A DNA stretch of 64,000 nt from Siphonodentalium dalli (lineage: Eukaryota; Mollusca; Scaphopoda; Gadilida; Siphonodentaliidae). A program made the translations under genes and the position numbers. The number at the start of each line of letters is the position of its first letter. The stretch's first letter is position 1. Below, in pieces: positions 6,552 to 56,400 of the stretch. The notes under the pieces are model-generated. The model worked only from the letters and a program-made list of their open reading frames with translations, did no database searches and was not told where the DNA came from. The stretch covers positions 148,679,577 through 148,743,576 of the forward strand of contig CP136065.1 of assembly GCA_032622095.1 (NCBI GenBank). The letters are read 5' to 3'.

Positions 6552-8266
6552 TGTTTAGAACCATTTGCAGCAGCATTGAAATTAGATAACGACATTATAG
6601 GCGTCAATATTAAAAAATAAAGAATATAAAATAAGTCAATATGCTGATGATTCAACAATATGGCTAAACGGTAGTCAAAGCTCTCTTCAGGGAGCGATCA
6701 ATTTGATTAAAGCATTCGAAAAGGTTTCCGGGTTAAAAGCTAACTTTGACAAAACAGAAGCGGTGTGGTTTGGAACCCGAAGAGGTTATACAAAATCTTT
6801 GAAAACAAACATTGACTTGAAATGGAACTTCAAAGGAAAATTCAAAACATTAGGAATTCTATTCAATCTGGAGGACCCTTTTACTAATACAAGAAAACTG
6901 GGAAATAAACAGGGAAAGTATGAAAAACATATTAAAGCATTGGGCACTGAGGACACTGTCTCACATCGGAAAGGTGACCGTAATCAAAACTCTAGTACTA
7001 CCAATTATTATTCAAATTATGACTGTTTTACCAGACCCCACAAACCTTTTTTTTAAGGAAATGCAGGGCTTGCTATTTCAATTTTTTTGGAATGGAAAAA
7101 GAGACCGGATTAAACGAGATACACTTATCCAAAATATAAATAATGGAGGACTCAAAATTCCAGACCTTAAATGCTTCTCAAAATCACTGAAAGTTACATG
7201 GCTTAAGAAAATATTAGACCCTTTCAACTTCTCTGAATGGAAATTAATGCTATTAAATAAAATGGAAAAATATGGAGGAACAGCAATGTTTAATTTGAAT
7301 AAACAAAGTTTAGTACAAATAGCAAAGGACTTCAATCCTTTCTGGAAAGAGGTTTTAACAGCATATGCACAACTAGCTATGGAACCGATATCAGATGAAG
7401 ATTTCAAATATCAACCAATATTTCATAACATATCATTAAAAATTCAAAAAAAAACTATCTACTATAGATCATGGATAGAAAAACAAGTCCTGTTTATCAA
7501 TGACATTTTAAGGGAAGATAACACATTCATGAATACTGAAGAAATATACTTAAAATATGGACTAAAAGTAAACTACTTAACACTTCATGCAATAATCACT
7601 TCAATTCCTTTGGCATGGAAGAACAAAATCAGAGCCACCCAAAATAAGCTAGAAATGATAAAAACTACTAAGGTTCAACAAGAAATAATAATTGAAGAAA
7701 GGTTAAACCAACTGCTCTATTGGAAATTTATAGAAATTTTAATACCAAATATGCCATGTGCCCAATTTGGATGGAGCAAAAAATTAAACCTTGACTCGAC
7801 ACAATTAGACTGGAACACTATTTATAAAAGGTGTTTTAGGATAACAAAAAATACGAAATTGCAAGCCTTCCAATATCAAATAAATCACAATACCCATGTC
7901 ACAAACATATTCCTAGAAAAATGTAAAATATCCGAGAATAACATGTGTACTTTCTGTGATAGTGAAAGAGAAAACATTGAACATCTTCTGGCAAAATGTT
8001 GCAAAGTGCTGCCTTTATGGAAACACATATCAGATATTCTATGTGCTTGTTTTAATTTGAATTCAACCTTGAAAATTGAAGAAATTATTTTTGGAACCAG
8101 TCCAAACCAAAATTATTTAGCAATAAATAACCTAATACTGATAACAAAACGTTATATATATATAACAAGATGTAAGAAAACCAGTTTAACAAAAGAAGCG
8201 CTTATAAATTACCTTAATGAAGAGTTCAAATTAGAAAAACAAGCAGGTAATGGAACACAAATTTAA
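6552..8266 (+). pseudogene. Reverse transcriptase C-terminal half, frameshifted
   Basis: Reading starts in an EPFAAALKLDND segment (about 6558). A frame change leads to QYADDSTIWLNG at about 6637, whose YADD is RT motif C with the catalytic aspartates. It continues through VSGLKANFDKTEAVWFGT and shifts frame again near 6915-6925. A 448-codon open stretch then runs to 8266, with IGKVTVIKTLVLP, a long C-terminal region and the cysteine-rich motif CTFCDSERENIEHLLAKC (around 7945-8000) typical of the L1/Tx1 clade. At least two frameshifts and the missing N-terminal two thirds make it a pseudogene. Confidence 0.88.
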
Positions 8267-17948: not shown

Positions 17949-18205
17949 CTAACCCTTTCTATATTAAATACTCATTGGCAATTAGTTCCTATAGGAAATG
18001 TTCAGGTAATAAGTTCAACATGAAAGAGCCATAATTTGTTGAACTTATTTAATATCTGGACATTTCCCACTAAAGAATATGAATCACGTTCTTCACTTGC
18101 ATTATTTATTTTCCCCTTTTATTCCCTGAATATCCCACAAAATATGTAATAGACCATTCCAATGTATAACTGATAAGAGATTCCATTCAGTAAAGATAGG
18201 GTTAA
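17949..18205. mobile_element. Family B MITE
   Basis: Left end AACCCTTTCTATATTAAAT and right end ATTCAGTAAAGATAGGGTTAA are imperfect inverted repeats. The interior carries CCTATAGGAAATGTTCAGG, TTGTTGAACTTATTTAATAT and TCATTCCAATGTATAAC-like motifs shared by at least eight copies in the window. TTAA at the right end fits piggyBac-type insertion. Confidence 0.75.
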
Positions 18206-21657: not shown

Positions 21658-22646
21658 TCTATATTATATATTTTGAGACTTCGTATATATATGTGTGTGT
21701 ATATATGTGTGTGGGTACTTCATAGAATCCAAAACGCGTGTACATATTGAGCTCAAACTTCCTATGTAAGTGTCAAATCCCACCGACACGACCGTGGTCG
21801 CGGTTTAGAGAAGCTCAGAGCACCCGTTCTCCAATCTCAAATCACCGCAAAGGCACGGCGTGGGTTAATCAAGTGATTATTTAATGAGCGTTTGTTTTTG
21901 ACGCATCTCTATAAAGAGCGTCTGTTTCCCATTCAACGTTATTAGCATCTGCATAGTTATACGGGAACATTGAGTGCTTGCCTATGCGGGCAGATTTATT
22001 GGAGCTCTTACAACATCATTGTTATAGTATGTATGACACTTAGGTCAGGGCTTAGGGGGGGGGGGTAGTTATAGGCATAATGCTTCTCAGAAATCCCGGT
22101 TACAAACCAACACTCACAATTTCGTATTTACGCAAACGTTATCGCTCGAAATTTATTCCCTGCGAGCACGGATGGCGCGCTTTGTTTTTACAGTGAAGGT
22201 ATATACCGAAATCATCCCAGATAATCACGAATATAGCATCAGATTTCTCCCCAGATATGCCGTTATAAAGCTCAAACTTGCTACCTACGGGAAGTGTCAT
22301 ATATATGTGTGTGTCCTTTATAGACTCGAACCGAAATACGGGAAGTGTCATGGACGGGTTCATTGAAAAACAAAAAAAATCGGGTAAAATTGAAAAACAA
22401 AATTAAATAGGCACAATTAACTCCTTGAAAAAAAAAAAAATCGGGTAAAATTTAAAAACAAAAAATTCAATTAAAAACAAAATAATTAACTCATTGAAAA
22501 ACAAAAAATTCAATTAAAATTGTCATGTTTCTGACTATTGCCGAAATTTGCTGCAAATGCAGCACAAGTGTCTCGGAACCTGTTGCAATTGCTTTTTCGA
22601 ACAAAGCCATGGGACGAATGCCGCCAGTGGCGGGCTAACCTGCTAG
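21658..22646 (+). mobile_element. Non-autonomous Helitron 1 of a head-to-tail array
   Basis: The left end is A|TCTATATTATATATTTTGAG (TC at 21658). The right end has a CCGCC-AGT-GGCGG hairpin (around 22621-22633), then CTAG at 22643-22646. These are the classic Helitron ends: 5' TC, 3' hairpin, CTRR. The interior resembles the left part of the element at 34055 (TCAAACTTCCTATG, TAAAGAGCGT). It also carries an A-rich local repeat (22366-22520) with the phrase AAAATCGGGTAAAA. No Rep/helicase ORF. Confidence 0.8.
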
Positions 22647-22909
22647 TCTCATATATATTTTGAAGACCTCTGTTTGTTTGTTTGTCTGTCTGTCTGTCTG
22701 TCTGTCATTTATACAAATCTACGATTCTCGACCGATCGGGACGAAACTTGGTACGTGTGTGTAGTTTGACCAGGCGGTGAACGTTGTCGTATTGGCGAGC
22801 CCGTGCGGCGCCCGCTTCGCGCATGCGCAGACGAGATCTCGGAAACGGGTGGAGCTATCGACTTGAAATTTGCTATGTGAATGTATCTTGCCCCGGATAC
22901 GAATGCTAG
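22647..22909 (+). mobile_element. Helitron 2 of the array, truncated
   Basis: It starts TCTCATATATATTTTGAAGA directly after the CTAG of Helitron 1. It has a (TCTG)n tract and one 122-bp-type unit (GACGAGATCTCGGAAACGGG). It stops inside CCCCGGATACGAAT with GCTAG at 22905-22909. There is no terminal hairpin, so its own 3' end is missing or replaced. Confidence 0.7.
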
Positions 22910-24099
22910 TCTATTATATATTTTGATACAATCTGTCTGTCTGTCTGTCCTTTATACAAATCTACGATTCTCCACCGATCGGGACGAAACTTGGTACGTG
23001 TGTGTAGTTTGACCAGGCGGTCGTCGTTGTCGTATTGGCGAGCCGTGCGACGCCCGTGCAGCGCATGCGCAGACGAGATCTCGGAAACGGGTGGAGAGCT
23101 ATCGACTTGAAATTTGGTATGTGAATGTATCTTGCCCCGAATACGAATTTTATCGGGTCGCCAGGCCTGTGCGACGCCAGCTTCGCGCATGCGCAGACGA
23201 GATCTCGGAAACGGGTGGAGCTATCGACTTGAAATTTGGTATGTGAATGTATCTTGCCCCGGATACGAATTTTATCGGGTCGCCGAGCCCGTGCGACGCC
23301 AGCTTCGCGCATGCGCAGACGAGATCTCGGAAACGGGTGGAGCTATCGACTTGAAATTTGGTATGTGAATGTATCTTGCCCCGGTTACGAATTTTATCGG
23401 GTCGCCGAGCCCGTGCAACGCCAGCTTCGCACATGCGCAGACCAGATCTCGGAAACGGGTAGAGCTATTGTTTTTGAATAGCCCGGACAACGGGTGGAGC
23501 TATCGACCAGATCTCGGAAACGGGTAGAGCTATTGTTTTTGAATAGCCCGGACAACGGGTGGAGATATCGACTTGAAATTTGCTATGTGAATGTATCTTG
23601 CCCAGGATACCAATTTTATCAGGTTGCCGAGCCCGTGCGACGCCAGCTTCGCGCTTGCGCAGACCAGATCTCGGAAACGGGTAGAGCTATCGACTTGAAA
23701 TTTCGGGATTTCGATGAAACTTGGTATGTGGGTGTACCTTCGTATGGGGAGTCTCATAATCATATTCATTTGCCCGTGCGACGTGACCTTGAAATCGGGT
23801 CAATTCAAGGTCAAATCGCCAATTTTTATGGGATTTCGACGAAATTTTATACATAGGGTTACTTTTGTCCACTGGGTGTTTTGGACGGGTCAAATCGTGA
23901 CCCCAACCTGACCTTGACCTTCAAAATAATAAATTCAAGGTCAAATCGGGTAAAACCGGATGGATTTCGACGGGCCCGTTTGTCGAATACTTTTGTCCGG
24001 CAGTGTTTTGGACTGGTCAAATCGTGACCCCACTTGACCTTGACCTTCAAAATGGACAATTCAAGGTCAAAGCCCGGACGAAGTCTGGTCACCTTCTAG
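22910..24099 (+). mobile_element. Helitron 3 of the array, with 122-bp repeats and TCAAGGTCA sites
   Basis: The left end TCTATTATATATTTTGATAC (22910) directly follows CTAG. The interior has about five 122-124-bp tandem units (starts of GACGAGATC at 23072, 23196, 23318, 23440 and partial units to 23700). These are followed by a block rich in TGACCTTGA/TCAAGGTCA. The right end has the hairpin CCCGGAC-GAA-GTCTGG and CTAG at 24096-24099. The many overlapping ORFs on both strands are by-products of the repeats. Confidence 0.8.
23072..23700 (+). repeat. 122-bp tandem repeat inside the Helitron
   Basis: The unit contains CGGAAACGGGTGGAGCTATC, GACTTGAAATTTGGTATGTG, TTGCCCCGGATACGAATTTT and GCGCATGCGCA. 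Spacing is 124, 122 and 122 bp, with later units shortened. The same unit is present in the Helitron at 36553-37103. Confidence 0.9.
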
Positions 24100-24799
24100 T
24101 CTATTATATATTTTGGAAGATCTGTCTGTCTGTGTGTCTGTCTGTGTGTTCGCGATGGACTCGAAAACAGCCGAGCCGATTTCGATGAAACTTGGTATGT
24201 GGGGGTGTTTTCGGCCGGGGACTGGCATAGGCCTATTAATTTTCCCGTTCGACGTGACCTTGACCTTGAAATCGGGTAATTTCAAGGTCAAACGCACAAA
24301 TATCAAGGGATTTCGATGAAACTTGGTATGTGGTGGAACTTTCGGCCGGGGAGTGGCATAGGCCTATTAATTTGCCCGTGCGACTTGACCTTGACATCGG
24401 GTCATTTCAAGGTCAAACGCCCGAATATCACGGGATTTCGATGAAACTTGGTATGTGGGGGTACTTTCCTATGGGGAGTCTCATAAGCATATTCATTTGC
24501 CCGTGTGACGTGACCTTGACCTTGAAATCGGGTCAATTCAAGGTCAAATCGCCAATTTTGATGGGATTTCGCCGAAATTTTATACATAGGTTTACTTTTG
24601 TCCACTGAGTGTTTTGGATGGGTCAAATCGTGACCCCCCGACCTGACCTTGACCTTCAAAATGATCAATTCAATGTCATATCAGGTAAAACCGGATGGAT
24701 TTCGACGGGCACGTTTGTCGGGTACTTTTGTCCGGGCAGTGTTTTGGACTGGTCAAATCGTGACCCCACTTGACCTTCAAAATGGACAATTCAAGGTCA
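23784..24799. promoter_or_regulatory. Cluster of TCAAGGTCA (NR5A/ERR-type) half-sites in Helitrons 3 and 4
   Basis: The nonamer TCAAGGTCA, or its complement TGACCTTGA, begins at 23784, 23805, 23909, 23935, 24035, 24061, 24255, 24261, 24282, 24386, 24407, 24511, 24517, 24538, 24644 and 24791. That is sixteen sites in about 1 kb. This is the extended half-site bound by monomeric nuclear receptors of the SF-1/NR5A and ERR groups. Whether it is bound in this animal is unknown. The sites may instead be structural repeats of the element. Confidence 0.6.
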
Positions 24800-24829
24800 A
24801 AGCCCGGACGAAGTCGGGTCACCTTCTAG
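24100..24829 (+). mobile_element. Helitron 4 of the array
   Basis: The left end TCTATTATATATTTTGGAAG is immediately after the CTAG of Helitron 3. The right end has the hairpin CCCGGAC-GAA-GTCGGG and CTAG at 24826-24829, followed by T. The interior is made of several degenerate ~130-bp blocks (GGGATTTCGATGAAACTTGG...GTGACCTTGACCTTGAA...TTCAAGGTCAAA). Length 730 bp, no coding capacity. Confidence 0.85.
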
Positions 24830-25294: not shown

Positions 25295-25549
25295 TTAACC
25301 CTTCCATGGCTGGGGCTTTCAGAAATTTTGCGAAAACCCTGTGCCAATGCATTCTCTTATATATGCTAGTCTCCCATTGGGAGCCTCATATATATATAAG
25401 AGAATACATTGGCCTAACAATATTTACCTTGACCTTGTAAGCCAGTGCATTCTCTTATATAGGGAGCCTCACATATATAAGAGAATATAATGGTGCAGCA
25501 CAGGATCTTTAATACTGCACCAGCACAGCTCCCATCGTGAAATGGTTAA
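25295..25549. mobile_element. Family C MITE, opposite orientation to the 12.3-kb copy
   Basis: TTAACCCTTCCATGGCTGGG ... CCCATCGTGAAATGGTTAA, with TTAA at 25295 and 25546. The interior contains ATGCTAGTCTCCCATTGGGA and ATATATAAGAGAATACATTG. The copy is otherwise intact. Confidence 0.85.
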
Positions 25550-28679: not shown

Positions 28680-29030
28680 GCTAATGGCGCTTTCGGCGCA
28701 TCGCGCCAAAAGCGACAAAAAGTGCGCCATTAGTAACGCGCCGAAAGCGACAAAAAGTGCGCCGTAACGGCGCACTATTTGTCGCTTTCGGCGCGGTGCG
28801 CCGAAAGCGACAAAATGTGCGCCATTAGCGTTATTTCGGCGCTATGCGCCGAAAGCGACAAAAAGTGCGCCATTAGCGCATTCGGCGCGGTGCGCCATTA
28901 GTGCATTCGGCGCGGTGCGCCATTAGAGCATTTGGCGCGGTGCGCCATTAGCGCATTCGGCGCGGTGCGCCATTAGCGTGGTGCGCCGAAAGCGACAAAA
29001 TATGCGCCATTAGCGCATGTACAATTAAGT
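28680..29030 (+). repeat. GC-rich tandem repeats of the left fold-back arm
   Basis: Two alternating short motifs, GCGCCGAAAGCGACAAAA(A) and GCGCCATTAGCGCATTCGGC, are repeated about 6-7 times each. The G+C content is far above that of the surrounding DNA. Confidence 0.9.
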
Positions 29031-29694
29031 ATGTGATCACACCAGCAGGGGTGCCGGAAGAGGGGGGCAGAGGGGGCAGCTGATCCCCTGCCCTTGACCA
29101 AGGGGGCAGGACTTGCCCTTTTTCTGGAGACAGAAAATGCTGTGTTTAATCTCGTGTTTTTATAGCAAAATGTGACTTTTTTGGTCCAAATACCACCAAT
29201 TTCACAAGGAATATTAATTTTTCTGTCAGTGTCACGGCATTGGTCGTTACATGAATAACTTATAAATTGACTACTTTTAATTAGACTACCCCTGGTATGG
29301 AAAACTGTGACTGTTATAGCCCGATGTGTGATTTAGTTTACTGACACCCACATCTGGGATTTACTGCCCACAGGGAGATAAAAGAATGACTAGAGTGATT
29401 AACGGGCATGGTATGGGATTTGATACAATGTTTATGTTTTGAAGTGAGAAATAACTCGAAGATGCCCGTTATTTCGTTAAATATTACTTTTACGAAATAA
29501 CCGGCATTTTAAGATTTACACCACAACTTCGCAAAACGTATAAGAAATGATAAACTGAGGGTGGGTGGGCTTGGGGAAGGAGGATGGCACTGTACAAAAG
29601 ACAGCACACAAAAAAAACACTTGTCCTATTCAATCCCAGATGCCCCCTCTGCCCCCCTCTTCCGGCACCCCTGCCGGTGTGATCACATACTTAA

Positions 29695-30030
29695 TTGTAC
29701 ATGCGCTAATGGCGCATATTTTGTCGCTTTCGGCGCACCACGCTAATGGCGCAACGCGCCGAATACGCTAATGGTGCACCGCACCGAATGCGCTAATGGC
29801 GCACCGCGCCGAATGCACTAATGGCGCACCGCGCCGAATGCGCTAATGGCGCACTTTTTGTCGCTTTCGGCGCATCGCGCCGAAAGCGACAAAAAGTGCG
29901 CCGTATCGGCGCATCGCGCCGAAAGCCACAAAAAGGCGGTGCGCCGAAACAACGCTAATGGCGCACATTTTGTCGCTTTCGGCGCGTGCGAAAGCGACAA
30001 AAAGTGCGCCGAAAGCGCCATTAGCAAGTG
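29695..30030 (-). repeat. GC-rich tandem repeats of the right fold-back arm
   Basis: This is the inverted counterpart of the left-arm array, with small indels between arms. ORFs at 29818-30093 (minus) and 29846-30037 (plus) are translations of these tandem units. Confidence 0.9.
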
Positions 30031-32800: not shown

Positions 32801-32811
32801 GCTAGTTAATT

Positions 32812-33872
32812 TTAGTCGAGTATTTCAAAAACTCGACTTATGGTTTGACGAGGGACGGTTGGCGGGCGGGCGGGCGGACCTAAAGAATGCCTTATAACTT
32901 TGACATTTGTGAACGGATTTGGTATGTGAGTTGCTCCCAATGACTATTTACTGCCTGTAGAAAATGGGTCACGTCCGATCTTTTTGACAAGAGTTATCCA
33001 TCTTTGATGACTTTTTTTTAAGTTGTTCACTGTTAGCGCGATAACTAACGCAAATATTAACCAATTTCAACAATATTCGGTATATGAGACTCTTGCAACA
33101 ATATCTCGGACAGGTTCGAAAACCAGGTTTGTCCGAATTTTTTTTCCAGAGTTATGGGTCTTTGTTTGTCTATTTTTAGCAATTTTATCACCGTTAGCAC
33201 GATAACTCGATGAAATATTAACCGATTTCAACAATATTTGGTATATGAGTCTCCTGCAACAATATCTCGGACGAGTTCGTAAACCAGGATTGCCGAATTT
33301 TTTTTGGCGGAGTTATGGGTCTTAGTTTATCTATTTTTAGCAATTTTATCACCGTTAGCGCGATAACTCGATGAAATATTAACCGATTTCAACAATATTT
33401 GATATATGAGTCTCCTGCAACAATATCTCGGACGAGTTCGAAAACCAGGTTTGTCCGAATTTTTATCGCAGAGTTATGGGTCTTAGTTTGTCTATTTTTA
33501 GCAATGTTATCACCGTTAGCACGATAACTCAATGAAATATTAACCGATTTAAACAATATTGGGTATATGAGTCTCTTGCAACAATATCTCGGACGAGTTC
33601 GAAAATCTGGTTTGTCCAAATTTTTTTTCCTGAGTTATGGGTCTTAGTTTGTCTATTTTAATAACAATTTTATCACCGTTTGTGTGATCACTCAATGAAA
33701 TATTAATGGATTCAATTGATATTTGGTATATAGGTCTATTGCAATAATATACCACCGTCCCGACTTTTTTTCCCGGAGTTGTGCACCTTATTGGCAGAAG
33801 TTTGGTTCGACTGCCAAAAAACTCGACAAAAGCATCTTTGATGCGTACCCCTTGTTTATAACTTAATCTCAT
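32812..33872 (+). mobile_element. Element with 161-bp tandem repeats and AAAACTCGAC at both ends
   Basis: The left border has the palindrome AGTCGAG-TATTTCAAAAA-CTCGACT (32815-32839). The right border has AAAAAACTCGACAAAAGCAT and the hairpin GCATC-TTT-GATGC (33832-33844). Between them are about five tandem units of 161-163 bp, with GTTAGCGCGATAACT-type anchors at 33032, 33193, 33354, 33515 and 33678. Short inverted terminal motif, internal minisatellite and 3' hairpin resemble the DINE-1/Helentron layout, but I cannot define exact ends. The 167-aa minus ORF crossing it is an artefact. Confidence 0.6.
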
Positions 33873-33996: not shown

Positions 33997-34740
33997 TTAA
34001 CCCTTTCATGACCATGTGCTGGTGCAGCATTAAGGATCCTGTGCCAGTGCATTATCTAATTTATATTTTGGGACCTCTGTTTGTTTGTCTGTTAGCTATG
34101 GCCGGGAAAACTGCCGGACGGATTGAGCCCAAACTTCCTATCTAATGGTAAAATCCTAGATTGAGTGTCATCGCACCGCTTCTGAGAACGTTCGAGCACT
34201 CAATCTCCAATCATCCGCCACCGCAATGGGAATTCATGGGTCAATCGCGTGATAGTTAAAGAGCGTTCGTATCCGCAGTGTCGTTGATAAAGAGCGTGTA
34301 TGTGTCCAGACATGAGCGTGTTGTGTGATTCTTAAGTCTGTGTTCGTACTTAGGGGTTCCTGGGAATGGGGGAGATTTTCATCGGGTCAGTTTTTCCGCT
34401 CGAGGTGACCTTCACCTTGAAACGGGTACCCACAAATGATCTAATATATATTTTGGGACTTCTGTCTGTTTTTGTTTGTCTGTTAGCTATGGCCGGGAAA
34501 ACTGCTGGACGGATTTCGACGAAATTTGATACCTACAGGTAATTTTTTCCGGGGAGTGTTTTGGACGGGTCAAATAGTGACTCCGACCTGACCTTGACCT
34601 TCAAATTGGTCAATTCAAGGTCAAAGCCCGGACGAAGTCGGGTCACCTGCTAGTCTTATATATGTGAGACTCGCATATATAAGAGAATGCATTGACACAG
34701 GGTTTTCGCTAAATTTCAGGAAGTTCCAATCACCAATGAC
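33997..34740. mobile_element. Family C MITE split by a Helitron
   Basis: The left part 33997-34054 (TTAACCCTTTCATGACCATG...CAGTGCATTA) and right part 34654-34740 (TCTTATATATGTGAGACTC...CAGGGTTTTCGCTAAATTTC) join seamlessly if 34055-34653 is removed. This gives an empty-site sequence as in other copies, and so defines the Helitron boundaries independently. Confidence 0.85.
34055..34653 (+). mobile_element. Chimeric non-autonomous Helitron with two 5' ends
   Basis: It is inserted between A and T of a family C MITE. The left end is TCTAATTTATATTTTGGGAC. A second complete left end, TCTAATATATATTTTGGGAC, is at 34440. There is a single right end with the hairpin CCCGGAC-GAA-GTCGGG and CTAG at 34650-34653. 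The first part resembles Helitron 1 at 21658. The second resembles the right part of Helitrons 3 and 4 and carries TGACCTTGA (34589) and TCAAGGTCA (34615). Confidence 0.9.
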
Positions 34741-35479: not shown

Positions 35480-38400
35480 GTAAGTCTGAGTTTATTTGGT
35501 TTTCAAAATATTTTATTTAGTTTGATGAAATGCACATCAATTGATCAATCATCAGCTGTTCAAGATAGAAGGCATGCTGGATACAATACAGCTCAGATGG
35601 CCTGATATCCCTATATGATGTGATTGATTAAGTTGTATGCACATAATATTTACCCATCCTGTATCTATTTGGTTTGTGAACACATGGTAATTGGGTCATT
35701 CATTTTATATCCCAATAAAACATACCATAACATGAACTGATGTCACACCTTGTTAATAACTTTGCATATATTTTAAGTGAGGGGTCACAGACTGCATGCA
35801 ATCGATCAATAATTCACATCAGGTAGAATATAAATTGGGCTAACTTATTTACAGTGCTTCATGGTATAATATCCAAACTGCAGACATATTTCAGGAAAAC
35901 AAAATTAGCTGAGTTTATATAGAAATTACTAAAGAAAAAGTCATATAAATATGAGAAATATATGTACAGTAATGCCCTAAATATTGACTCCTTAACCACA
36001 GCAGAATTATGCGTAATTTTTCAGGATTTAGTCGGAAATATGGCTTGGAAAGCTCTCAGTGAGAGCTTTCCGATGAATGGCAACAAGCCATATTTCCGAC
36101 AAAATCCTGAAAAATTACCCATAATTCTGCTGTGGTTAAGGAGTCGATTATTTAGGGCATTACTGTAATTGAGTGTGCATATGTTTTATTGAGGGGTATG
36201 TAGCTGTGGCTGTTGTAGCACACAATGTTCCCAATAAAACACACTCAAACTACATTAATTTCTTAAATAACGTTTCCATGCAACTGAAGGTTTTGTAACA
36301 ACTAGCCTTAACTCTATAATTTACCAGGCCTGCATGACCACATTGATCCTATATTAGTGTAGCTGAAATCTAGTGCCACAAATTTTTATCTGAATCTGGG
36401 CCCTTTATTGATATATGTTATGTTTCTACTAGATTCTGACTGACACTATAAAGTCTTTATAATGACACTGATGTCACTTATATCCATATTCATTGAGCTT
36501 CAACATACATGGCCCATGCTCGGGACTATATTTCTCAATCTTGGCCTTCCAATCTCATATATATTTTGAAGACCTCTGTCTGTCTGTCTGTCTGTATGTT
36601 TGTCTGTATGTTTGTCATTAATACAAATCTACAATTCTCGACCGATCGGGACGAAACTTGGTACGTGTGTGTAGTTTGACCAGGCGGTGAACGTTGTCGT
36701 ATTGGCATGCCCGGGCGGCGCCCGCTTCGCGCATGCGCAGACGAGATCTCGGAAACGGGTGGAGCTATCGACTTGAAATTTGGTACGTGAATGTATCTTG
36801 CCCCGGATACAAATTTTATCGGGTCGCCGAGCCCGTGCGACGCCAGCTTCGCGCATGCGCAGACGAGATATCGGAAACGGGTGGAGCTATCGACTTGAAA
36901 TTTGGTATGTGAATGTATCTTGCCCCGGATACGAATTTTAAAGGGTCGCCGAGCCCGTGCGACGCCAGCTTCGCGCATGCGCAGACCAGATATCGGAAAC
37001 GGGTAGAGCTATCGACTTGAAATTTGGTTTTTGAAACGGGTGGAGCTATCGACTTGAAATTTGGTTTTTGAATAGCCCGGACAACGTCGGGCTCATCGGC
37101 TAGTTATATATATTTTAGATCTTATCTGGTCCATAATGATACTAAAGTAGCTAGACCACCTGAACAGTTGACTACTGTTGAAGACCTCCAAACATGTTCA
37201 AGAAGGTTTCGTTTATCTTCAAAATGATATTCTCCCTCAAGATATTTTAATACTATTATATTAAATTAAACATTTATAATATCATTGTGAACTGTTCACA
37301 TTTTGTTTTTTTCTCTATTATAGATTAAAGCTCTGCAAACTGAAGTTATTTTGCCATTAGAGAAGAAGCTGTCAGAGAGTTTCAGACATATTGGAGTGAG
37401 TATTATTGATTTAAAACTCAAGATCAGCAACAAGAACCTTAAAAATTTGCTTTCTACATGTCATGTGCTGTGTGTTAGCAGGAGGTTTGTGACATGAGCG
37501 AATTGATTAATTTGCAATCAACCTGCCTGCAACACTGCCACCAACTCTCACCAAATTTGATCAGTGCTTTAATTTGGTGGTGTGATTCCCACTGATAAGT
37601 TAATTTAGGTTTTACAATTACATATACTAGTATACAAAGAGAAGTAACCAATTTAGTCACTGCTGTACAAGTAATCATATATCAGTGATCGGGGAAAGGT
37701 ATTTCTAACAAAGAAATAACTGTAGTCATATTAGAACTTGAAATTTTATACCATTTAAATTTAGTTATATTCAAATAGAGTGGAGAATTTGGGCTCATAT
37801 GTGTGACAGATGATATGATACCAACCTGAGAGACTATTAATTGATAAAGTTTAACACTTCCATGACTGGAGCTTCCTGAAATTTTACGAAGACCCTGTGC
37901 CAAAAAAGCATTATCTTATATATGTGAGTCTCCCATAGGAAGCCTTTCATATATACCGGTAAGAGAATACATTGGCCTAACAATATCTACCTAAATGTAA
38001 GCAAGTTCATTCTCTTTAAATATATATGCGAGGCTCCCTATGGGAGACTTGCATATGTAAGAGAATGCACTGGTACATGGTACTTAATGCTGCACCAGCG
38101 CAGCTCCCATCATGAAAGGGTTAAAGTGTGGACATTCAGTACAATCCTGTTTGAAATTTAATAGTATTTTAGTCAAAGATGATCATACAGACTTTTAACT
38201 ATGCTATTTGTGATCTTTTACATACATACATATGTAATATGAAACAAAGAGTTCATAGAACTCGTTTTATCAAATAATTAACCCACAAAATGAGCTTCAT
38301 AATTATTGGTAAGACACACGTGGAATATTAGCGCATGCAATGATGTCACGCCATTATTTAAATCACTTGCGATTGCTGAAGTTTATGATTGTTGTTTTCG

Positions 38401-41400
38401 ATGAATACTTCGCATTGCTTCGCGTTTATTTGATCATGTGATAAAAGGTATCTCAAACTCGTTCTATTTTATACGTAATTTATCAACCTCGTCCACTAAA
38501 TTCTATATGAGCCTCGATCAGTAAACCTCGGCTCAAATCTAATTTAGTGAACTCGGTTGATAAATTCTGTATAAAATAGAAACTCATATGAGATCCTCTA
38601 TTAATTAAATCTGTCCAAAAAAAAATATGAAATTGAAAGAGGGGCTTTGCTCATTGTGATTATGAGTCAAAACTAATACTGCTCTGATGTAAGCTATGGT
38701 TTATTTTCAGACTGAATACAAAAAGTACTCACAGGGTCACAAATCTATTGTGGCACCATTCTATAAATCCACAGAAACACTGAGAAAGTTCCAAAAAAAG
38801 AGCCGTTCAAGGGGTTATGCAGATGGTCTCAAAGAAAATAGTGTAAGTTTTATCAAATTTTACAAAGAAAGAAATATATCAAGGGCCATCTCAATATCTT
38901 CTAAGAGAGTTATCATTAGACTACATTTGCTTTCAGTATTTATTTAAAGCCACATGGCTGTTTGTGCTCCAAAATACATTTAATAATATATGCTTTTGAA
39001 TTATTCCTGGTATCGAAATAGGTCAATAAATACCTAACTACCTTTCTACAAACATTGATCCCAGAAAGACGCATTTGAGTCATAAGTTATCTGTTCATGT
39101 ATGGAATATTTATGGTATATATGCCAAGCAAGGTATTACAGAAGAGATATAAATTATCACCTCATAAAGAAAAACTGGTCCCATTTGCTTCTGCAGCATA
39201 ACAAAAAAAAGGAGAGACTGTTTCTTGATAGTTTTTTTCTGATATGGTAAATGAGTAGTTGTATCACTTAAAATTAGATATCAATTATTACATCCACTGT
39301 AAAATCTGCTACTTAACTATTTCTTTACTAAATACTCATTGACTAGTAGTTCCCTTAGGAAATTATCAGATTTGTTGCAACTATTATTTGAACATTTCCC
39401 TCCATAGATAGGACTCCTTCTGCACTTGTATTATCTGTTGTCTGCTTATTTTTTTCCTGAAAACCTCTCCAGGTGAATAATATACCATTCCAATGTATGC
39501 TTTTATAACTGAGTGGGAGAATTTATTTAGCACTTGGATAATGCTCAAGTTACAATTTGGTACACATTTATCTTTGGGTGCAATTAGAATTCTTCAAGTT
39601 CTTGTTCAAATATTTAAAGACTGAACACTTCCATATTTACAGTTACAATGTATGCTAACCCTTGTTGTGAATTAATCATATTACTATTATGACTTAAAAT
39701 CTTCAATTGTACGAAAGTGTATGTCATTTGAAACCTCCAGACAGTATTTTATGCTGTTCTATGCATATCACAATCATTTCTATCGGGGAACAAAATTACC
39801 TCTCATGTTACCATTTGAATAAATATCACATCAAAGATTACGTTGGTTTGAGGAAGTTTATAGAAGGATGATCCGTGTCTCCATATATTGATCCCTGTTG
39901 TTCACTTTGGCGAGCACCTGAGAGATTGTAGACATATGCATCAGTTATTAATACCACCTTCTTTGTTCCTCTATCCAGATCTTGCAGGAGGCAACAAAAT
40001 GCAAAAGCAGAGTCGACAAATACAGATTGGAAGGCTTGCAACAGGTACAGCTCCATATAATACATTAAAGCCAATCACATGTGTTTGAACATTATACTAT
40101 CAGTTTCAATCTGTGAGTTCAAATAGGCCAGAAAATGTAACATTTTGAATGTAGATAACTAGGGGGCATATATATATACTAGCTGATGTGTCCGACTCTG
40201 TCTGGGCTTTTTAGGGAACAACATCGAAATAAATATTGTTCGATCAGTCCAGAAACATGCCTATATGAGCGTATATGAGTGAGGTCAAGGACATGCTCCC
40301 ATGTGAAATTGGACCCGCCCATATTGTTCCCGGGATCAAACTAGGCCTACATACCAAATTTGAGTCGGATCGGTCTATCTGTCCAGAAACATGCCTATAT
40401 GAGCATATATGAGCGAGGTCAAGGACACGGTCACACGTGAAATGGGACCCTTGTTTCCATGTTAAAGTAGGCCTACATGCCTAATTTGAGTCGGATCAGT
40501 CCAACAGTTTTCCAGCCTATAACGCACACAGAGAGTCAAACACAGACAGAAGTTCCAAAATATACTGTAGATAATGTGTTCAGGAACATGATTGAGCCAT
40601 ATATTGCAAGATAACAGTGTAAAGCTGCTTACACATGGAAGTGGCGCGGCCGGTGCGGTTATCTAGCGAATAAACTTTTTGTCTTCGCCGCGAGAGTGTC
40701 GCTTTCACATGGCAGCGGCAGAATAATTATAAACGCCCAAAGTATTGTGTTTCATAACATGATTTTAGAAGGAGGCAGTGTCTGATGACACACTTGTTAT
40801 AATAGACTGGCATATTTGTATCGACAACGGAAAAAGAAGAGAAATAGAAGGTTTTTGGTACACCCAATTAATAAGAAGAGATATTTACATGGTGTATTTA
40901 ATCATAATTTATACCATGAACTCTATTCAGATGAGGACAAATTTATACAATACTTTAGAACGTCAAATGAACAGTTCGCACTGATACTTTTCTTCATCGA
41001 AGATGATATAAAGAACGAATACAGGGTGCGGAAGCCAATATAATTTTTGGGGATTTTCCCTTACATTTGAGGTAGTGCTACATGACCCGATGAATATGTG
41101 TGGAATGCTTTGATCCGACAGTGATTCATCGCGCGAACGCTCTGCAAAATGGCTCACGGTTCCATTGAAAATAAACGCGCCGCTCATTAAAAATGTCGCC
41201 GCGCGTCGATTGGCCACGCCGCGCCAATATGTAAGGTCCCGTTCTTCATGTGTAAGCGGCTTTACAAGTGTTAGAAATGTTACAAGCTTTGAATGAGACA
41301 CTATAATCTGTATCATTGTGGGATTTGAACCTCCATGCCTCTTACCATAATTGAGAATATCCCATAAACAATCTTTTTGCCCCAATTCAACATAGCTGAC

Positions 41401-47400: not shown

Positions 47401-50400
47401 TATTGATATAGGCTGCATGCACAAACATCTATTCAGACATTAGAAATATTAATAACAAAACTGGATGGTTAATGTAGTCTGTCCAGTCACTCCAGTGTAT
47501 ACATGAGCAATGTATCATGCATCGATGTACAATTATATTTTGACCAAAACAAAACAAACAATCGGTCGAATAAATCATTATGTCGTTCTTCCACATATTC
47601 TGGAGACTGTCTCACTGGTATATAGTCTACAGCAGTTTGAAATTGTCATGAATGAAAGAGATCATGTTGCATTTTGCAGGTGCCAGCGATGACCTCTTAC
47701 GGTTTAATATTAATCCCGTTGTGCTGAATAACTGTTCAACCGGAACACTCCCCGGACTGGCACATAGGTATACTCTGGCCATTCGCCCAAGCAAAGGAAG
47801 TCGTTTTTCATAGCGACACCAGAATTCAAGGGGGCACATGTTATCCTCCCTGATGCCCAGATATTGTTCTATTTCATCAGCAAAAGGGTCCTTATTCTGC
47901 TGTGAGTTCTTCCCGACGACTTCTTCAAGTAGCGACATTCTCAGACGCTTCACTTCCGTTGGATGGGTAACCGGCACTGATTCTGTTTCGATTGGTTCCG
48001 ATATATTTGACGCCGCGCTAGACATGGATTCGCATTTGTCAGTTGCAGACGAATCTTCGATGAATATCCGCTCAGAAAATCGGGATGTTTTAAGATTTGT
48101 GTATGTTTCATTAAGAATATCCCTACACTCGTGGACAGAAATCATCGCATCACGAATAGATGGGTCAAAACACACTACTCTTTTGACAAATGGCGACAAA
48201 GGCAGTCGCTTGTCTAGGTTTGCGGCAACGGACCTCTTCATAACTTTAATTTCATCAGAATCATTTATGTCTACTTTACATATGCTCTGCACGCGAGCTC
48301 TCATGAGTGGGACCGTGGATAGGCTAGGTGCCACTTCACTAGCTATCAACGTGAATTTCTTGAAAGGTTCAAGGAATGTACGCAACTCGCCGAGTACTTG
48401 GTAGTCTTCGTCGGTGAAACACAGCTCAAATTTGCCAATTTTCTTGAGCATTTGATCAACCTCTCGTTTAAGATCGAGTATACTCTCGATCATACTTAAT
48501 GTGCTGTTCCAGCGTGTGGGTACTTCCTGCTTTAGTGTCGTATGATGATGTTCATGATGTGATGGGGCGCGAACTTCGTCGTCTTTCGATGTGGTTTGTT
48601 TGGGGTTAATGTCGTCTTCTTCGAGGTGGGTAAATTCTAGAGATATGTTTTGGCATAATTCAGCTTCTTTTGCAGACATGGTTTCTTCTGCTATCATGTG
48701 GGACTTGAAATGAAGAGCAGTGACAACTTCCTTGCACTGCTTAAGAAGAGCACTGATTTTGTCAACGCCATTCATTCCATCCACTGTCAGCAGATTGTGG
48801 ATACAATGTGCCACGCAGTTAACTCGTTCGTGGCCAAGGAGACGAGATAGTTTGATCATGTTGGGAGCTGCATCGGTGGTATTGAACATAAGGATGGACG
48901 CAGGTGTTGCAAAGAATTCATGCAAAATACCCCTTACAAAGCGATGGAGGCTTTCACCTGTGTGACTCTCTACTGGCTTAACTCCCAGGGTCACTACTTG
49001 GAACTTCCAATCCCGAATGAAACTCAACCTCACCGCAAAGTATGGCATCGCGCGATATTTATCCGTCCATCCGTCCATCATCAATGTAATACCAGAGACG
49101 GATTTCAGCATTTCCTTGACTCTCTCCTTGATGACGATGTACACATCAACGAGTGCAGTCGTCGCAAGTGCCCTGCTTGTAGGAATGGATATGTCCATGT
49201 TCTTTTCAACAAACGATTTGAACCCCTCCTTTTCAACAATCTCAAACGGCAATAAGTCTCTGCATAGCCATAATATAATGTCTCGATTGACTTCGAATGG
49301 TGATGATGACTTAGTACTTGCTTTCACTTTGGTCATCCAATTCGTGATTTTCATTTCTTGTTCCTTTTTGAATGTCATATTGTGAGCAACAGAACAGTGC
49401 ATGAAAAAGTTCCCGGTTGCAGTCCCCTCGGACAGTTTATAGATTTTTCCGAACGAACCATGATTCATTTTGGTCTGAATGTCAAAACATAACTTGCAGT
49501 AGAAGTTTTTATCAATTCGTTTAGATGTGCCATCTTCGTTTCGTTTGTGCAGTTCACCCATGAATTCCCAGTATTTTGATGTAGTCTTCTTACCTTCGCA
49601 ACTGTGTTGTAACCACACCAGGTTGAGTTTAGAGAGTTCTGAAAATGTTCTGTTTCTGTTTGACACAAATTTGTTGTTTACTGCGGCAGATCTCTTCGGT
49701 CTCAACATATTTATTGTCAATCGATCCGAATCACGAGACTGATTGTAAAAGTGTTGGTGCTAACTGTCGGCGAAACAAATTAGATGAAGAACGTTATTGT
49801 TTAGCTCACGTCAAAGTGTGACGCTACTGACGTTACAAGTGACGTAGAACGGTAGTTTGTATTAACCCTGCTGTGTCAATTCGTCATGACATTGCGAGTA
49901 TACCAATTTTGGCAATTTAGTTCTGTGTGACGTACGGTACAATTGGGCTTGACATATAAGCCCTTGTACGCGGCTCAGCCATTTTACAATTCCGGCGGCG
50001 GAGATTTTTTCATGTAGCTGGCGCTAGAGTTAATATGGCTGGCGGCGGCTTGTGACCAATATGGCTAGCGGCGGCGGCGTGCGGCGGCGGCTTCGGGCTC
50101 TAATATCCTATATCTTTATAAACCATAGTTCTATATTCCCGGTATGAGAACATTCAGATATTTTAACCTGAAACATTGCATAAATCCTAACATCTAGTGG
50201 TCTAACTCCATACAAATGCACACGGCTACGGGCAAGAGACCACGACACACCGAGCTGACCATCGTTTTCGGCCGGTGTGAGAAAATTTTGAAATTTGAAC
50301 AAGAAAATCGCAAATCCTAGCATCCAGACTGGCCTCAACTAAAGCTTTCCTATAGTGTTGGAAATTTCAAACCTCATACTCCCCCTCAGGTTGGAAAATT

Positions 50401-53400
50401 ATCCAACTGATGACCACAAGTTTGACCAAATGTAGTAAAATATTGTTAAACTTATTAGCATTTTTGTATTGGCCACAGGGGAGAGACAATGAGACACCGG
50501 GCCGACCATGGTTCAGCCCGGTGTACGAAAATTTTGTAATCTGAACAAGAAAATCGCAAAATCCTACCAACTAGACTAGCGTCAAGCATTTTTAGAGTTG
50601 GAAATTTCAAACCTGACACCCCACTTAGGTTGGAAAATTTACAACTGATGACAATTCCAATGCCAATGTTGACCAAATGTATGAGAATATTGTTTTCTTA
50701 AAATTACTTGCAGTTTTTGACTGGCCACGGGGGAGGGACCAGGACACAAGATGTCCAAGTGTTGGAAATTTCCAACCTGTCACCCCCCTGAGGTTGAAAA
50801 ATTTCCAACTGATGACCATTTCAGTCCAAAATTTTTACAAAAAATAGGAAATTATGCAAATATTGGTCCAAAAACAATTAATTCCCCCCAATAAATTGTT
50901 TGAAAATCAAACTACAAGAACATTTCAACCTATTGTTGGTGTGAAATTTCCAACTAATGTTTTGGCAGGTATGAAATTTCCAACTGTTGAAAATTTTGAC
51001 CAAAGTTGGGGGGGGGGGGGGGTGAGATGGGGGGGGGGGTGAGACACCCCCTGTCGCCACGTCTCTGTTCGAATATGCCCAAGAAGCTATTCTACCCACT
51101 CATTCATACAGATAACTAGCACAAAATATTACTTTGCGCCATCAAAACCTGATTCCAAGATGTTTTGCTTGAACCCGAATACCAGTTAATTCAGGGGTAT
51201 GAATCCCGCGTACGGCTTCAAAACACCCTGAATCCCGCGTACCGAAAGGAGGGGGTGATACCCTCATTATTATCAGGGACATGGCTAGAGGGGGAAGTGT
51301 TCACCTTGGAATTTCCAACTTCATCCCCTACACCCAAGCCTGAGTTTAGTGTGCCTTCATTTGCAGAATGAGGTCCCCGGAGTGGGAATTTAATGAAGCT
51401 ATCCTGCATAGCGGGCTAAATTCACCCTCTGGGGACCTCATTCTGCATGGCCTCATCTGCTATGGGAGCCATAGACTCAGATTGAAGTTCTCAAAAGGTG
51501 ATGTACACACATTGGGAAACTCGATTATGCAATGTGTTGTCTGCCAATTTGGGGATATAGAGAAACTAAACTAAAAAAGAAATAGAATCTTTGTGAAGAA
51601 GTTTCTATAGAAATTTGACAATAAAGAAACTTTCCAGAGAAGATGAGCCTGAGCCGAATGAGGTCCCCAGAGGGTGGATTTAGTGATACTAGCCCACTAT
51701 GCAGGATAAAGTCACTAAATTCACCCTCTGAGAATTCTGAAAATGTCAGGCACACTAAACTCAGGACTTCCCTATACCCATTCCTTGAACTTTCCAACTG
51801 GTACCTGAAACTTTCCAGCTTTTAGATATTCCCACATAACAACCCCCCCCCCCCCCCCCCCCCTACAGTTTGAAGTTCAAACTGATTGTCATTTCAGTCA
51901 AAATATTTGACTGAAAGTCAGGCCGTACAGTCGTCTTATTGTCATGAAATTTGTAATGGATGTTAATATTGACATGCAGATGGGAACGAGTAATTTTGGG
52001 TCATTTGGCCAAAAAACATGGCCGCCGGCAGCCATCTTAGATTTGACTCTTTGCATGACTAAATCCTTTGACACGGGCTACAGGTCGTACCTTTGGTCAG
52101 ATCATCATAAAATTTGATCATGGATGTTAACAATGACATGTAGATGGGAACGAGTCTTTTTTTGGGTCATTCGGGCAAAAAACATGGCCGCCAGCAGCCA
52201 TCTTGGATTTTACTCTTTGTATGACTCATCCTTTAGCACGGGCTACAGGTCGTACCTTTTAGTCTGATCATCATGAAATTTGTAATGGCTGTTGAAATTA
52301 GAATGTAGAAGGGAACGAGTCATTTTGGGATCATTCGGACCAAAAAACATGGCCACCAGCAGCCATATTTGATTTCAAAATTTAATCCATTAGAACAGGC
52401 CACAGGTCGTACTGTTCGTCTGATCATCATTAAATTTGTCATGGATGTTAATATTGACATGTAGATGGGAACGAGTAATTTTGGGGTCATTCGGCCAAAA
52501 AACATGGCCGCCAGCAGCCATCTTGGATTTTACTCTTTGTATGACTAAATTCTTTAGCACAGGCTACAGGTCGTACCTTTAGTCTGATCATCATAAAATT
52601 TGTCATGGATGTTAACAATGACATGTAGATGGGAACGAGTCATTTTGGGGTCATTCGGCCGAAAAACATGGATTTTACTCTTTGTATGACTAAATCATTT
52701 AGCACGGGCTACAGGTCGTACTTTTAGTCTGATTCATCATAAAATTTGTCATGAATGTTAATAATGACATGTCGATGGGAACGAGTCATTTTGGGGTCAT
52801 TCGGCCAAAAAACATGGCCACCAGAAGCCATCTTGGATTTTACTCTTTGTATGACTAAATCATTTAGCACGGGCTACAGGTCGTACCTTTAGTCTGATCA
52901 TCATAAAAAATTTTATGGCTGTTGAAATTGTAATGTAGATGGGAACGAGTCATTTTGGGGTCATTCGGATGAAAAACATGGCAGCCAGTGGCCATCTTTG
53001 ATTTCAAAATTCAATCCATTAGCACGGGTTACAGGTTGTACTGTTCGTCTGATCATCATGAAATTAGTCATGGATGTTAATATTGAGATGTAGATGGGAT
53101 CGATTAATTTTGGGGTCATTCGGCCAAAAAACATGGCCGCCAGCAGCCATCTTGGATTTTACTCTTTGTATGACTAAATCCTTTAGCACGGACTACAGGT
53201 CGTATCTTGAGTCTGATCATCATGAAAATTTTTATAGTGGTGGAAATTGTAATGTAGATGGGAACGAGTCATTTTGGGGTCATTCGGATGAAAAACATGG
53301 CCGCCAGTGGCCATCTTTGATTTCAAAATTCAATCCATTAGCACGGGTTACAGGTCGTACTGTTCGTCTGATCATCATGAAATTAGTCATGGATGTTAAT

Positions 53401-56400
53401 ATTGAGATGTAGATGGGAACGATTAATTTTGGGGTCATTCGGCCAAAAAACATGGCCGCAGCAGCCATCTTGGATTTTACTCTTTGTATGACTAAATCCT
53501 TTAGAACGGGCTACAGGTCGTACCTTTAGTCTGATCATCATAAAATTTGTCATGTGGATGTTAACAATGACATGTAGATGGGAACGAGTCATTTTGGGGT
53601 AATTCGGCCGAAAAACATGGCCGCCAGCGGCCATCTTTGATTTCAAAATTCAATCCATTAGCACAGGCTACAGGTCGTACCTTTTGTCTGATCATCATAA
53701 AATTTGTCATGGATGTTAACAATGACATGTAGATGGGAACGAGTCATTTTGGGGTCATTCGGCCGAAAAACATGGCCGCCAGCGGCCATCTTTGATTTCA
53801 AAATTCAATCCATTAGCACAGGCTACAGGTCGTACCTTTAGTCTGATCATCATAAAATTTGTCATGGATGTTAACAATGACATATAGATGGGAACGAGTC
53901 ATTTTGGGGTCATTTGTCCAAAAAACATGGCCGCCAGCAGCCATCTTAGATTTTACTCTTTGTATGACTAAATTCTTTAGCATGGGCTACAGGTCGTACC
54001 TTTAGTCTGATCGTCATAAAATTTGTTATGGATGTTAATGATGACATGTAGATGGGATACAATAATTTTGGGGTCATTCGGCCGAAGACATGGCCGTCAG
54101 CAGCCATCTTGGATTTTACTTTTCTCTTCATGTCTATAAACTAGTATTAGACATTCAACTTTCCTAATCGCTCCATTGACTGTAATACATTAAATTATTC
54201 CCTTTCCAAGTTGAGCTACAGTGTCATTGACACTTTCATTATATTAAATTTTTATAGTTATATTTGACAGTATCAATCCCCTCATACCCAGATTTTTTGT
54301 GTGTGGAAAATATGGTATCACGCATGTTCAGCCACATTGACATGTATAATAATAATGCAGCAAACGAACTGGCTCCAGATAAAATTAATGAAATTATTTT
54401 ATTGTATAATGACACAAGTATGCCTCCATAAGTGACATTAATGGGGTGACATGATTGCTCATAGCCACTTTTAAACTGCTGCCTCTTTTAGTCTTTTTGA
54501 AGAAAAAAACCCAGTAATATCTGTATTCAACTGTTATAGTTTAATATAGCTAAAGTAGTTTAATTCAGGACGTGGTAGACATGTAATAATAGTCATAAAT
54601 CGTGAGTGACCGAAATGCTGAAGTAACTATAGTGAAATTGAGACATGCACGTATGGCCATAAAACTGTTTACAACATTCCTTGCTCTATTCTGATTTTAA
54701 ATGAAAATATGAGAGATTGTTAATTGACACAGATACCTCTCTTATTATGTGTCACTATCTATTTTAGCATCTTCTATTGTGCAATTATTAATATAAATAT
54801 ATGGCCTGTCTGTGGTGTCATTCATGAGAAGTTGAGACATATTTGATAAGATAAAAAAGGAAGTGATTGAAGATGAGGCCTAATGAGCAGAATGAGGTCC
54901 CCAGAGAGTGAATTTAGTGATGCTACAGCTGGCTATGCAAGATAGTCACTAAATTCACCCTCTGGAGACCTCATTCTGAAAATGTAAGGCTCACTATATA
55001 AACCCTATACCCATTCCTTGAATTTTCCAAATGGTACCGGAAACTCTCCAGTTTTTGGATATTTCCCACCTAACATTCCCCCTACAGTTTGAAGTTTCAA
55101 ACTGATATTCAAACTGATTGTCATTTCAGTCAAAATATTTGACCTCAAGTCCAGGAAATATTTCAAAATTTGGTGAAAAAAAACAACAAATTTCACATTA
55201 AATGCTGGTTAGGATATCAAATTATCAAAACAAATTTAACCTGCTTTTTGAAAAAAAAACAATAATATCTGTATTCAACCGTTATATTTTAATATAGCTA
55301 AAGTAATTTAATTCAGGACGTGGTAGACATGTAATAATAGTCATAAATCGTGAGTGACCGAAATGCTGAAGTATTAAACTATAGTGAAATTTAGACATGC
55401 ACGAATGGCCATAAAACTGTTTACAACATTCCTTACTCTATTCTGATTTTAAATGAAAATATGAGAGATTGTTAATTGACACAGATACCTCTTTTGTTAT
55501 GTGTCACTATCTATTTTGGCATCTTTTATTGTGCAATTATTAATATAAATCTATGTCCTGTCTGTGGCGTCATTCGTGACAAGTTGAGACATATCTGATC
55601 AAATTAAAAAGGAAGTGATTGAACCAGGAAAATAGCAATTCATAGATGGTGACACTTTATGTCTGCATGAGTGATTGTATAAAAACAGATTATCAGCTTT
55701 ATCAGCATTCTTTTTACATGATCTCGCATATTGAGAGTACAATGAGACAAGGGGTCCTAAGGATACACCAAGTAGTATTGTGTGGGTGGGCATTGGCAGG
55801 GGAAAAGTGTTATATAAATAAATTATTACTTAAAAATGGTTTCAGATAAAATATTGTGAAAGACTGAACACTTTAAAGGGACTCTTTTGGCCTTTGAAGC
55901 TGATTGAAGTGGGTTTATGCGAAATAACATTTGTAAACCAACTATCATCAACAAGTACACTAAAAATAGATTGACGTTGTTCTTATTTTCATCGTTAGTA
56001 AATCTCTATTAATGAGATTTCGCATGTCAAAACCATTAATTGTTATGTAAATATTACTGTTACAGTGGAATTGCAAATAAAAGTCCAATTAGTCCAATAA
56101 GATACCAAAGTTTAACCATTCCATGACTGGAGCTTCCTGAAATTTTGAGAAAACCCTGTGCCAATGCATTCTCTTTTATATGCGAGTCTCCCATAGGGAG
56201 CCTTGCATATATAAGAGAATACATTGGCCTAACAATATTTACCTTGACACCGTGTAAGCCAGTGAATTCTCTTATATAAGAAAATGCACTGGCACAGGAT
56301 CGTTAATACTGCACATGTGCAGCTCACGTCATGAAAGGTCGTCAAAACACGCCGGTGAACATTGGAAAAGGTCAAGGTTTTTTTAGAATAGAAACTTCAG

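Follow-up and report, generated by a model that had tools for sequence, protein, structure and literature searches.

A head-to-tail array of four non-autonomous Helitrons in Siphonodentalium dalli and its probable growth by insertion at 5′ edges

The window analyzed here is a 64,000-nucleotide stretch of the Siphonodentalium dalli assembly (contig CP136065.1). On its plus strand, positions 21658–24829 are occupied by four non-autonomous Helitron units, u1 to u4, which abut one another at three exact CTAG|TC junctions with no gaps (Table 1). The original prediction had described such an array, and every one of its coordinates proved right; all three junctions were found again with a 20-mer pattern, CTAGTCTATTATATATTTTG, that had 4 matches in the window at up to three mismatches, vs 0.03 expected. 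Three of these are the array junctions, while the fourth (18138–18157, minus strand) was rejected as a junction because it lacks CTAG. The bare hexamer CTAGTC is common, with 15 occurrences in the window on both strands, and hence only a CTAG joined to the full 5′-end motif is informative. This 5′ end reads exactly TCTATTATATATTTTG in both u3 and u4, TCTCATATATATTTTG in u2, and TCTATATTATATATTTTG in u1.

Table 1. Coordinates in the window of the array units, their junctions and the related insertions.
Feature	Start	End	Strand	Length (bp)	Description
u1	21658	22646	+	989	TC after A (21657); palindrome CCGCC-AGT-GGCGG; CTAG end
u2	22647	22909	+	263	Solo-like; 3′ part with hairpin missing; terminal GCTAG
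u3	22910	24099	+	1190	Chimera
u4	24100	24829	+	730	Internal repeats of ~131 bp; CTAG, then T and a (TA)-rich flank
Junction u1/u2	22643	22662	+		CTAG|TCTCATATATATTTTG; 20-mer pattern match, 2 mismatches
Junction u2/u3	22906	22925	+		CTAG|TCTATTATATATTTTG; 20-mer pattern match, exact
Junction u3/u4	24096	24115	+		CTAG|TCTATTATATATTTTG; 20-mer pattern match, exact
B2a	34055	34439	+		TC after A; without CTAG end; abuts B2b
B2b	34440	34653	+	214	TC after A; 3′ palindrome; CTAG, then T
Solo copy	36553	37103	+	551	Complete relative; A|TC...palindrome...CTAG|T
Minus-strand copy	40179	40571	-	393	Divergent complete relative; A|TC...CTAG|T

The window also contains three insertions of this kind that the original prediction had not mentioned, at 34055–34653, at 36553–37103 and, on the minus strand, at 40571–40179. 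The solo copy at 36553–37103 reads A|TCTCATATATATTTTG ... AGCCCGGACAACGTCGGGCT ... CTAG|T, with a 5′ end of the u2 type and unrelated DNA on either side. The original prediction had made its reading depend on these boundaries recurring in other copies, and within the window they do, given that this copy has both kinds of end. The array might instead be no set of separate transposons but a single larger repeat that has CTAGTC motifs inside it, an idea that draws on the chance frequency of the hexamer and, beyond that, on contiguity only. It is contradicted in the window by the solo copy, and two other insertions have the same kind of ends; we find it scarcely credible. All eight units have a 5′ region in common, their first 200 bases scoring 45–206 against the 5′ regions of the other units, vs a maximum of 27 among 400 background segments. 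No further copies were convincing in the window when it was searched with a 5′-end matrix built from its own eight ends, whose high scores follow from the way the matrix was made; the next best sites, at 18153 and 33867, were rejected since by eye the 5′ core is missing. No exact match to the junction, internal core or 3′ hairpin patterns was found in viral_contigs, nor to the 3′ hairpin or internal core patterns in genome_contigs, and distant blastn searches of u4 against phages and u3 against plasmids returned no matches. One viral contig matching a degenerate 5′-end pattern was dismissed as chance: the matching stretch is part of a predicted gene, the ORFs look phage-like by eye, and no Helitron features were seen.

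By their ends and insertion sites, the array units and their relatives fit canonical (Helitron1-type) non-autonomous Helitrons, in agreement with the class originally assigned to the array. A TC start is present in 8/8 units and a CTAG end in 7/8, with B2a as the exception. All five starts that do not lie at a junction are preceded by A (the probability of A before TC in the window being 0.285), and T follows all seven CTAG ends (probability of T after CTAG in the window, 0.278), while TC at the three junctions comes after the G of CTAG. An A|T target, as well as a T after CTAG at every junction, had been part of the original prediction and is borne out by the 5/5 starts that can be judged and the 7/7 CTAG ends. 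By eye, no target-site duplication is shared in the flank pairs of four insertions, and the flanks of 40179–40571 have a 2-base TA match. Helentrons are described as targeting TT and Helitron2 elements as inserting after TTTT (PMC5148889); the sites here, A|T at the 5/5 starts and 7/7 ends that can be judged, fit neither group. No Helitron domain was detected by Pfam in the ORFs of the window (31 distinct of 36 ORFs of at least 95 aa), and the four ORFs of the array gave nothing above the Pfam cut-off, with two weak matches at chance level (E 0.076 and 0.11).

Three of the four units had also been credited with a GC-rich hairpin upstream of CTAG. The palindromes themselves are present by eye in u1, u3 and u4 and absent in u2, and across the window a palindrome occupies the homologous place in six of seven CTAG ends; u2 is the one without it, and in the minus-strand copy it has decayed. 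Energetically, however, they are unremarkable: folding energies compared with dinucleotide shuffles gave z values of -0.35 (u1), +0.20 (u3) and -0.64 (u4), and the range across the seven CTAG ends folded, -1.37 to +0.20, is no better than that of shuffles. Ranked by folding energy among 248 CTAG contexts, the solo copy is 4th, u1 7th, u4 12th, u3 38th and u2 87th. A scan for a hairpin plus CTAG found 12 matches at 248 CTAG sites (4.8%), a figure inside the range for hairpins at seven other 4-mers (24/744 to 27/391, i.e., 3.2–6.9%), and thus hairpins alone are not diagnostic. Since the palindromes fold at the level of shuffles, the case for a hairpin is one of homology and position rather than of energy.

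The units differ widely in their interiors. The 5′ part of u1 matches B2a at 106/153 positions, and u1 is otherwise unlike its neighbors, its common ground with them being the 5′ region and the 3′ palindrome. The first 258 bp of u2 and the first 262 bp of the solo copy can be aligned, with agreement at 244/262 positions, and u2 is about as close to this dispersed copy (205/216) as to the adjoining u3 (205/214). In u3, a u4-like 5′ tip is followed by a u2/solo-like body with tandem repeats of ~122 bp to about 23703 and then, from about position 795 of the unit, by a u4-like 3′ part of 396 bp (370/390 compared bases, 15 gap columns). u3 and u4 are identical at 16/16 bases of the 5′ tip and at 49/50 of the last 50 bases; over the last ~110 bases they agree at 105/106 compared positions with 9 gap columns, the corresponding figures for B2b being 101/112 and 98/107. 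Local likenesses inside the array link u3 with u4 in their 3′ parts and u2 with u3 in their bodies.

Helraiser circles are reported to carry exact CTAG|TC junctions (PMC4778049; PMC5876387), and the array, or the u3–u4 pair, could have been inserted at once as a head-to-tail rolling-circle multimer, parts of which were later replaced by recombination. The likeness of u3 and u4 at both ends is in keeping with this, as are private changes in the two units that do not differ significantly (see below). A multimer from a single circle would consist of near-identical head-to-tail units, whereas the lengths here are 989, 263, 1190 and 730 bp and the bodies are unlike. Moreover, u1 shares just the 5′ region and 3′ palindrome with its neighbors, u2 is equally close to a dispersed element and to u3, and u2 and u3 are unequal in private change, all of which makes an origin of this kind rather unlikely. 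The case that the original prediction built on unlike interiors against a simple tandem multimer is upheld by the differing bodies and lengths of u1 to u4, by the chimeric nature of u3 and by the loss of the hairpin from u2.

We favor, with a probability of roughly 0.6, a pile-up of separate canonical non-autonomous Helitrons, each of which landed on the 5′ edge of an element already present. A newcomer would insert directly behind a host A and ahead of the TC that opens the resident, its CTAG-3′ would thereby be joined straight to the resident's 5′ TC, and the product, A-[TC new CTAG]-[TC resident CTAG]-T, would have the structure that is observed. As the host A and the resident TC would always present A|T, the left edge would remain a target after every insertion, and the array would extend leftward, with u4 as the earliest unit and u1 as the latest. 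IS608-like elements likewise retain an intact target at their left edge. Both the separateness of the insertions and their order are what we infer from this arrangement.

The original prediction had instead offered successive insertion at the 3′ edge as one of two possibilities, and this one is not supported. A T follows each CTAG, so that the junction sequence alone would fit, but the target would be G|T, while Helitrons use A|T, and a newcomer at the intact A|T site of the 5′ edge would leave an identical CTAG|TC junction. Because the left edge (A|TC) is an A|T site and the right edge (CTAG|T) a G|T site, the left edge is the likelier of the two. Among 1,751 Helraiser insertions, 46 were reported not to be at AT, the most prominent exceptions being TT, AC and AA (PMC4778049), and an insertion at G|T would thus be unusual. 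De novo Helitron insertions in wheat are likewise described as having a strong AT preference (PMC13286980). The whole array has an A in front and a T behind, as would also be expected of a composite Helitron that had been built elsewhere and had reached this site in a single step, with read-through starting at the leftmost TC and passing the inner CTAG ends up to the last one; u3 itself resembles a read-through or recombination chimera. Such an arrival would require three CTAG ends to be missed, two of them with a palindrome, and would leave the first origin of junctions between unlike units unexplained, and we hold it to be distinctly improbable.

Relative ages bear on these readings, given that leftward growth predicts u2 to be younger than u3, rightward growth the opposite, and a multimer equal ages. 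Over 215 aligned columns, private substitutions number 1 in u2, 11 in u3 and 10 in the solo copy (u2 vs u3, two-sided binomial 0.006), and over the whole alignable length (237) they number 1, 18 and 10, respectively. Two runs, of 3 and 4 bases, account for seven of the 11 substitutions private to u3, and counted as events the comparison becomes 1 vs 6 (two-sided p 0.125). Judged from these substitutions, u2, which lies to the left of u3, looks younger than u3, although with a chimeric u3 subfamily rather than age may be behind the contrast. For u3 vs u4, private sites with B2b as the third sequence number 3 vs 0 in 143 columns, which is not significant. With the repeats and B2b as outgroups the counts are 10 vs 6 of 19 differing sites, 1 of the 19 being ambiguous and 2 being without an outgroup, and this difference is not significant either. 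The u3/u4 counts do not support the leftward order and lean the opposite way without significance; the near-identical ends of these two units could equally stem from a local dimer or from gene conversion. This lean toward an older u3 would suit serial insertion at the 3′ edge, which would however need u2 to be older than u3 and not younger, in addition to a G|T target, and which we consider very unlikely.

Insertion at the 5′ edge of residents can also be considered in light of the target preference. Behind the four CTAG ends that have no unit following them, the flanks read TATTATATATATCTTA, TCTTATATATGTGAGA, TTATATATATTTTAGA and TATATATATATGCCCC. These 3′ flanks have a mean of 9.0 TA/AT steps in 16 nt, vs a background mean of 3.08 over 12,746 A|T sites (200,000 draws, P 5e-6), and the 5′ flanks have no such enrichment (mean 1.75, P 0.93). 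For Helraiser, a similar AT bias was described that is strongest on the 3′ flank (PMC4778049). The possibility that the (TA)-rich flanks are relics of older 5′ ends was rejected, as none of the four has homology to the 5′ regions beyond the AT run, and 0.13–0.74 of 400 background segments score as high against those regions; the flanks look like host target. Directly after the CTAG of B2b, positions 34654–34684 contain an 11-bp inverted repeat, TCTTATATATG...CATATATAAGA, and the insertion target of B2b may have been a hairpin-forming site.

The elements' own 5′ ends carry 5 to 10 TA/AT steps, which places seven of the eight in the top 0.4–11% of A|T sites and the minus-strand copy at 21%. Such a (TA)-rich 5′ end would be expected to make the 5′ edges of residents preferred targets. 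Random abutment is unlikely, being expected ~0.0016 times over seven insertions, or 0.030 times if (TA)-rich sites only are counted, vs 3 observed, these expectations being rough and the window having been picked for its array. With ~0.03 abutments expected from (TA) preference alone, the 5′ ends of residents would seem to attract newcomers in some more specific way. A possible reason lies in the model proposed for Helraiser, in which transposition starts with the binding and nicking of the left end by the transposase (PMC4778049). More tentatively, the 5′ end of this family could mimic its own target (A|T plus a TA-rich run), so that residents would act as standing landing sites and arrays would grow leftward with the newest unit outermost; we regard this as possible, if doubtful. 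Were such a self-targeting rule true, the order of units in an array would be a time series.

Helitrons lying next to one another or in tandem have been published before, and the array described here is a further example, a real and well-preserved one, of a known phenomenon, with its mechanism modestly refined. In bat and maize, distantly related Helitrons were reported directly adjacent to each other, which resembles the unlike units side by side in this array (PMC4067079). The same report mentions tandem Helitron arrays in Myotis lucifugus and Bombyx mori, ascribing them to a bypassed termination signal, in contrast to insertion at a resident's 5′ edge as favored here (PMC4067079). The main text of the silkworm paper that it cites (PMC3789558) does not contain the word "tandem." In Metarhizium acridum, three tandem Helitron copies were read as the outcome of either 5′-end insertion occurring twice or rolling-circle replication, and this pair of candidate mechanisms, which includes 5′-end self-insertion, is akin to that weighed here, as are composite elements with several 5′ ends described in that work (PMC5148889). 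However, the Metarhizium elements are presented as non-canonical and Helitron2-like, with other ends and another target, whereas the present units are of the type TC...CTAG in A|T (PMC5148889). Helraiser and Helibat1 are described as having, like the array units, TC/CTAG ends, an A|T target and an AT preference on the 3′ side, and the circle junctions of Helraiser are exact CTAG|TC junctions like those of the array, although Helraiser is an autonomous reconstructed element and the units here are non-autonomous and chromosomal (PMC4778049; PMC5876387). Plant centromeric Helitrons amplified by rolling circle also form head-to-tail arrays (Xiong 2016, via PMC5876387), while in the present array the units differ. 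Blocks of internal tandem repeats like those of u3, u4 and the solo copy occur in Mothra, a non-autonomous, non-coding rolling-circle element (PMC4683698), and in oyster Helentron elements (PMC7492417), the likeness in both cases being one of described structure. The oyster elements bear the name of Helentrons, for which a TT target is given (PMC7492417; PMC5148889), unlike the canonical ends at A|T found here.

If insertion at the 5′ edge were the rule, the order of units in a Helitron array would record the order of insertion, and it would separate serial self-insertion from rolling-circle multimers, two readings between which the Fusarium study did not decide in the case of Metarhizium (PMC5148889). 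Exact genomic CTAG|TC junctions need not imply circle multimers, a caution that matters wherever such junctions and tandem arrays serve as evidence of rolling-circle transposition (PMC5876387). The argument from the A|TC and CTAG|T edges was not found in the open-licence literature that was searched; it may well be in print, for instance in subscription papers.

Several other features were observed in the window. On the minus strand at about 32802–33866 lies a 161-bp tandem repeat (33027–33750, 4.5 copies), past which on that strand a perfect 11-bp hairpin stands 8 bases before a CTAG that is followed by C; this region is possibly another putative Helitron family carrying a satellite. At 25403, also on the minus strand, TCTCTTATATATATATGAGGCTCCCAATGGGAGACTAG combines a TC start, a hairpin and CTAG in 38 bases, with T before and C after. 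At 28786–29854, GC-rich 25-bp units form two oppositely oriented arrays ~760 bp apart, which resembles a foldback element, and a satellite-like array with units of ~155/319 bp extends over about 2.2 kb at 51942–54120. Coding traces of other transposons comprise pieces of a LINE-type reverse transcriptase spread over two frames at 6601–8263 (RVT_1 and zf-RVT, below the Pfam cut-off) and a long hAT transposase frame on the minus strand at 47630–49759, an open frame of 710 aa with a hAT dimerisation domain (Pfam E 1e-10).
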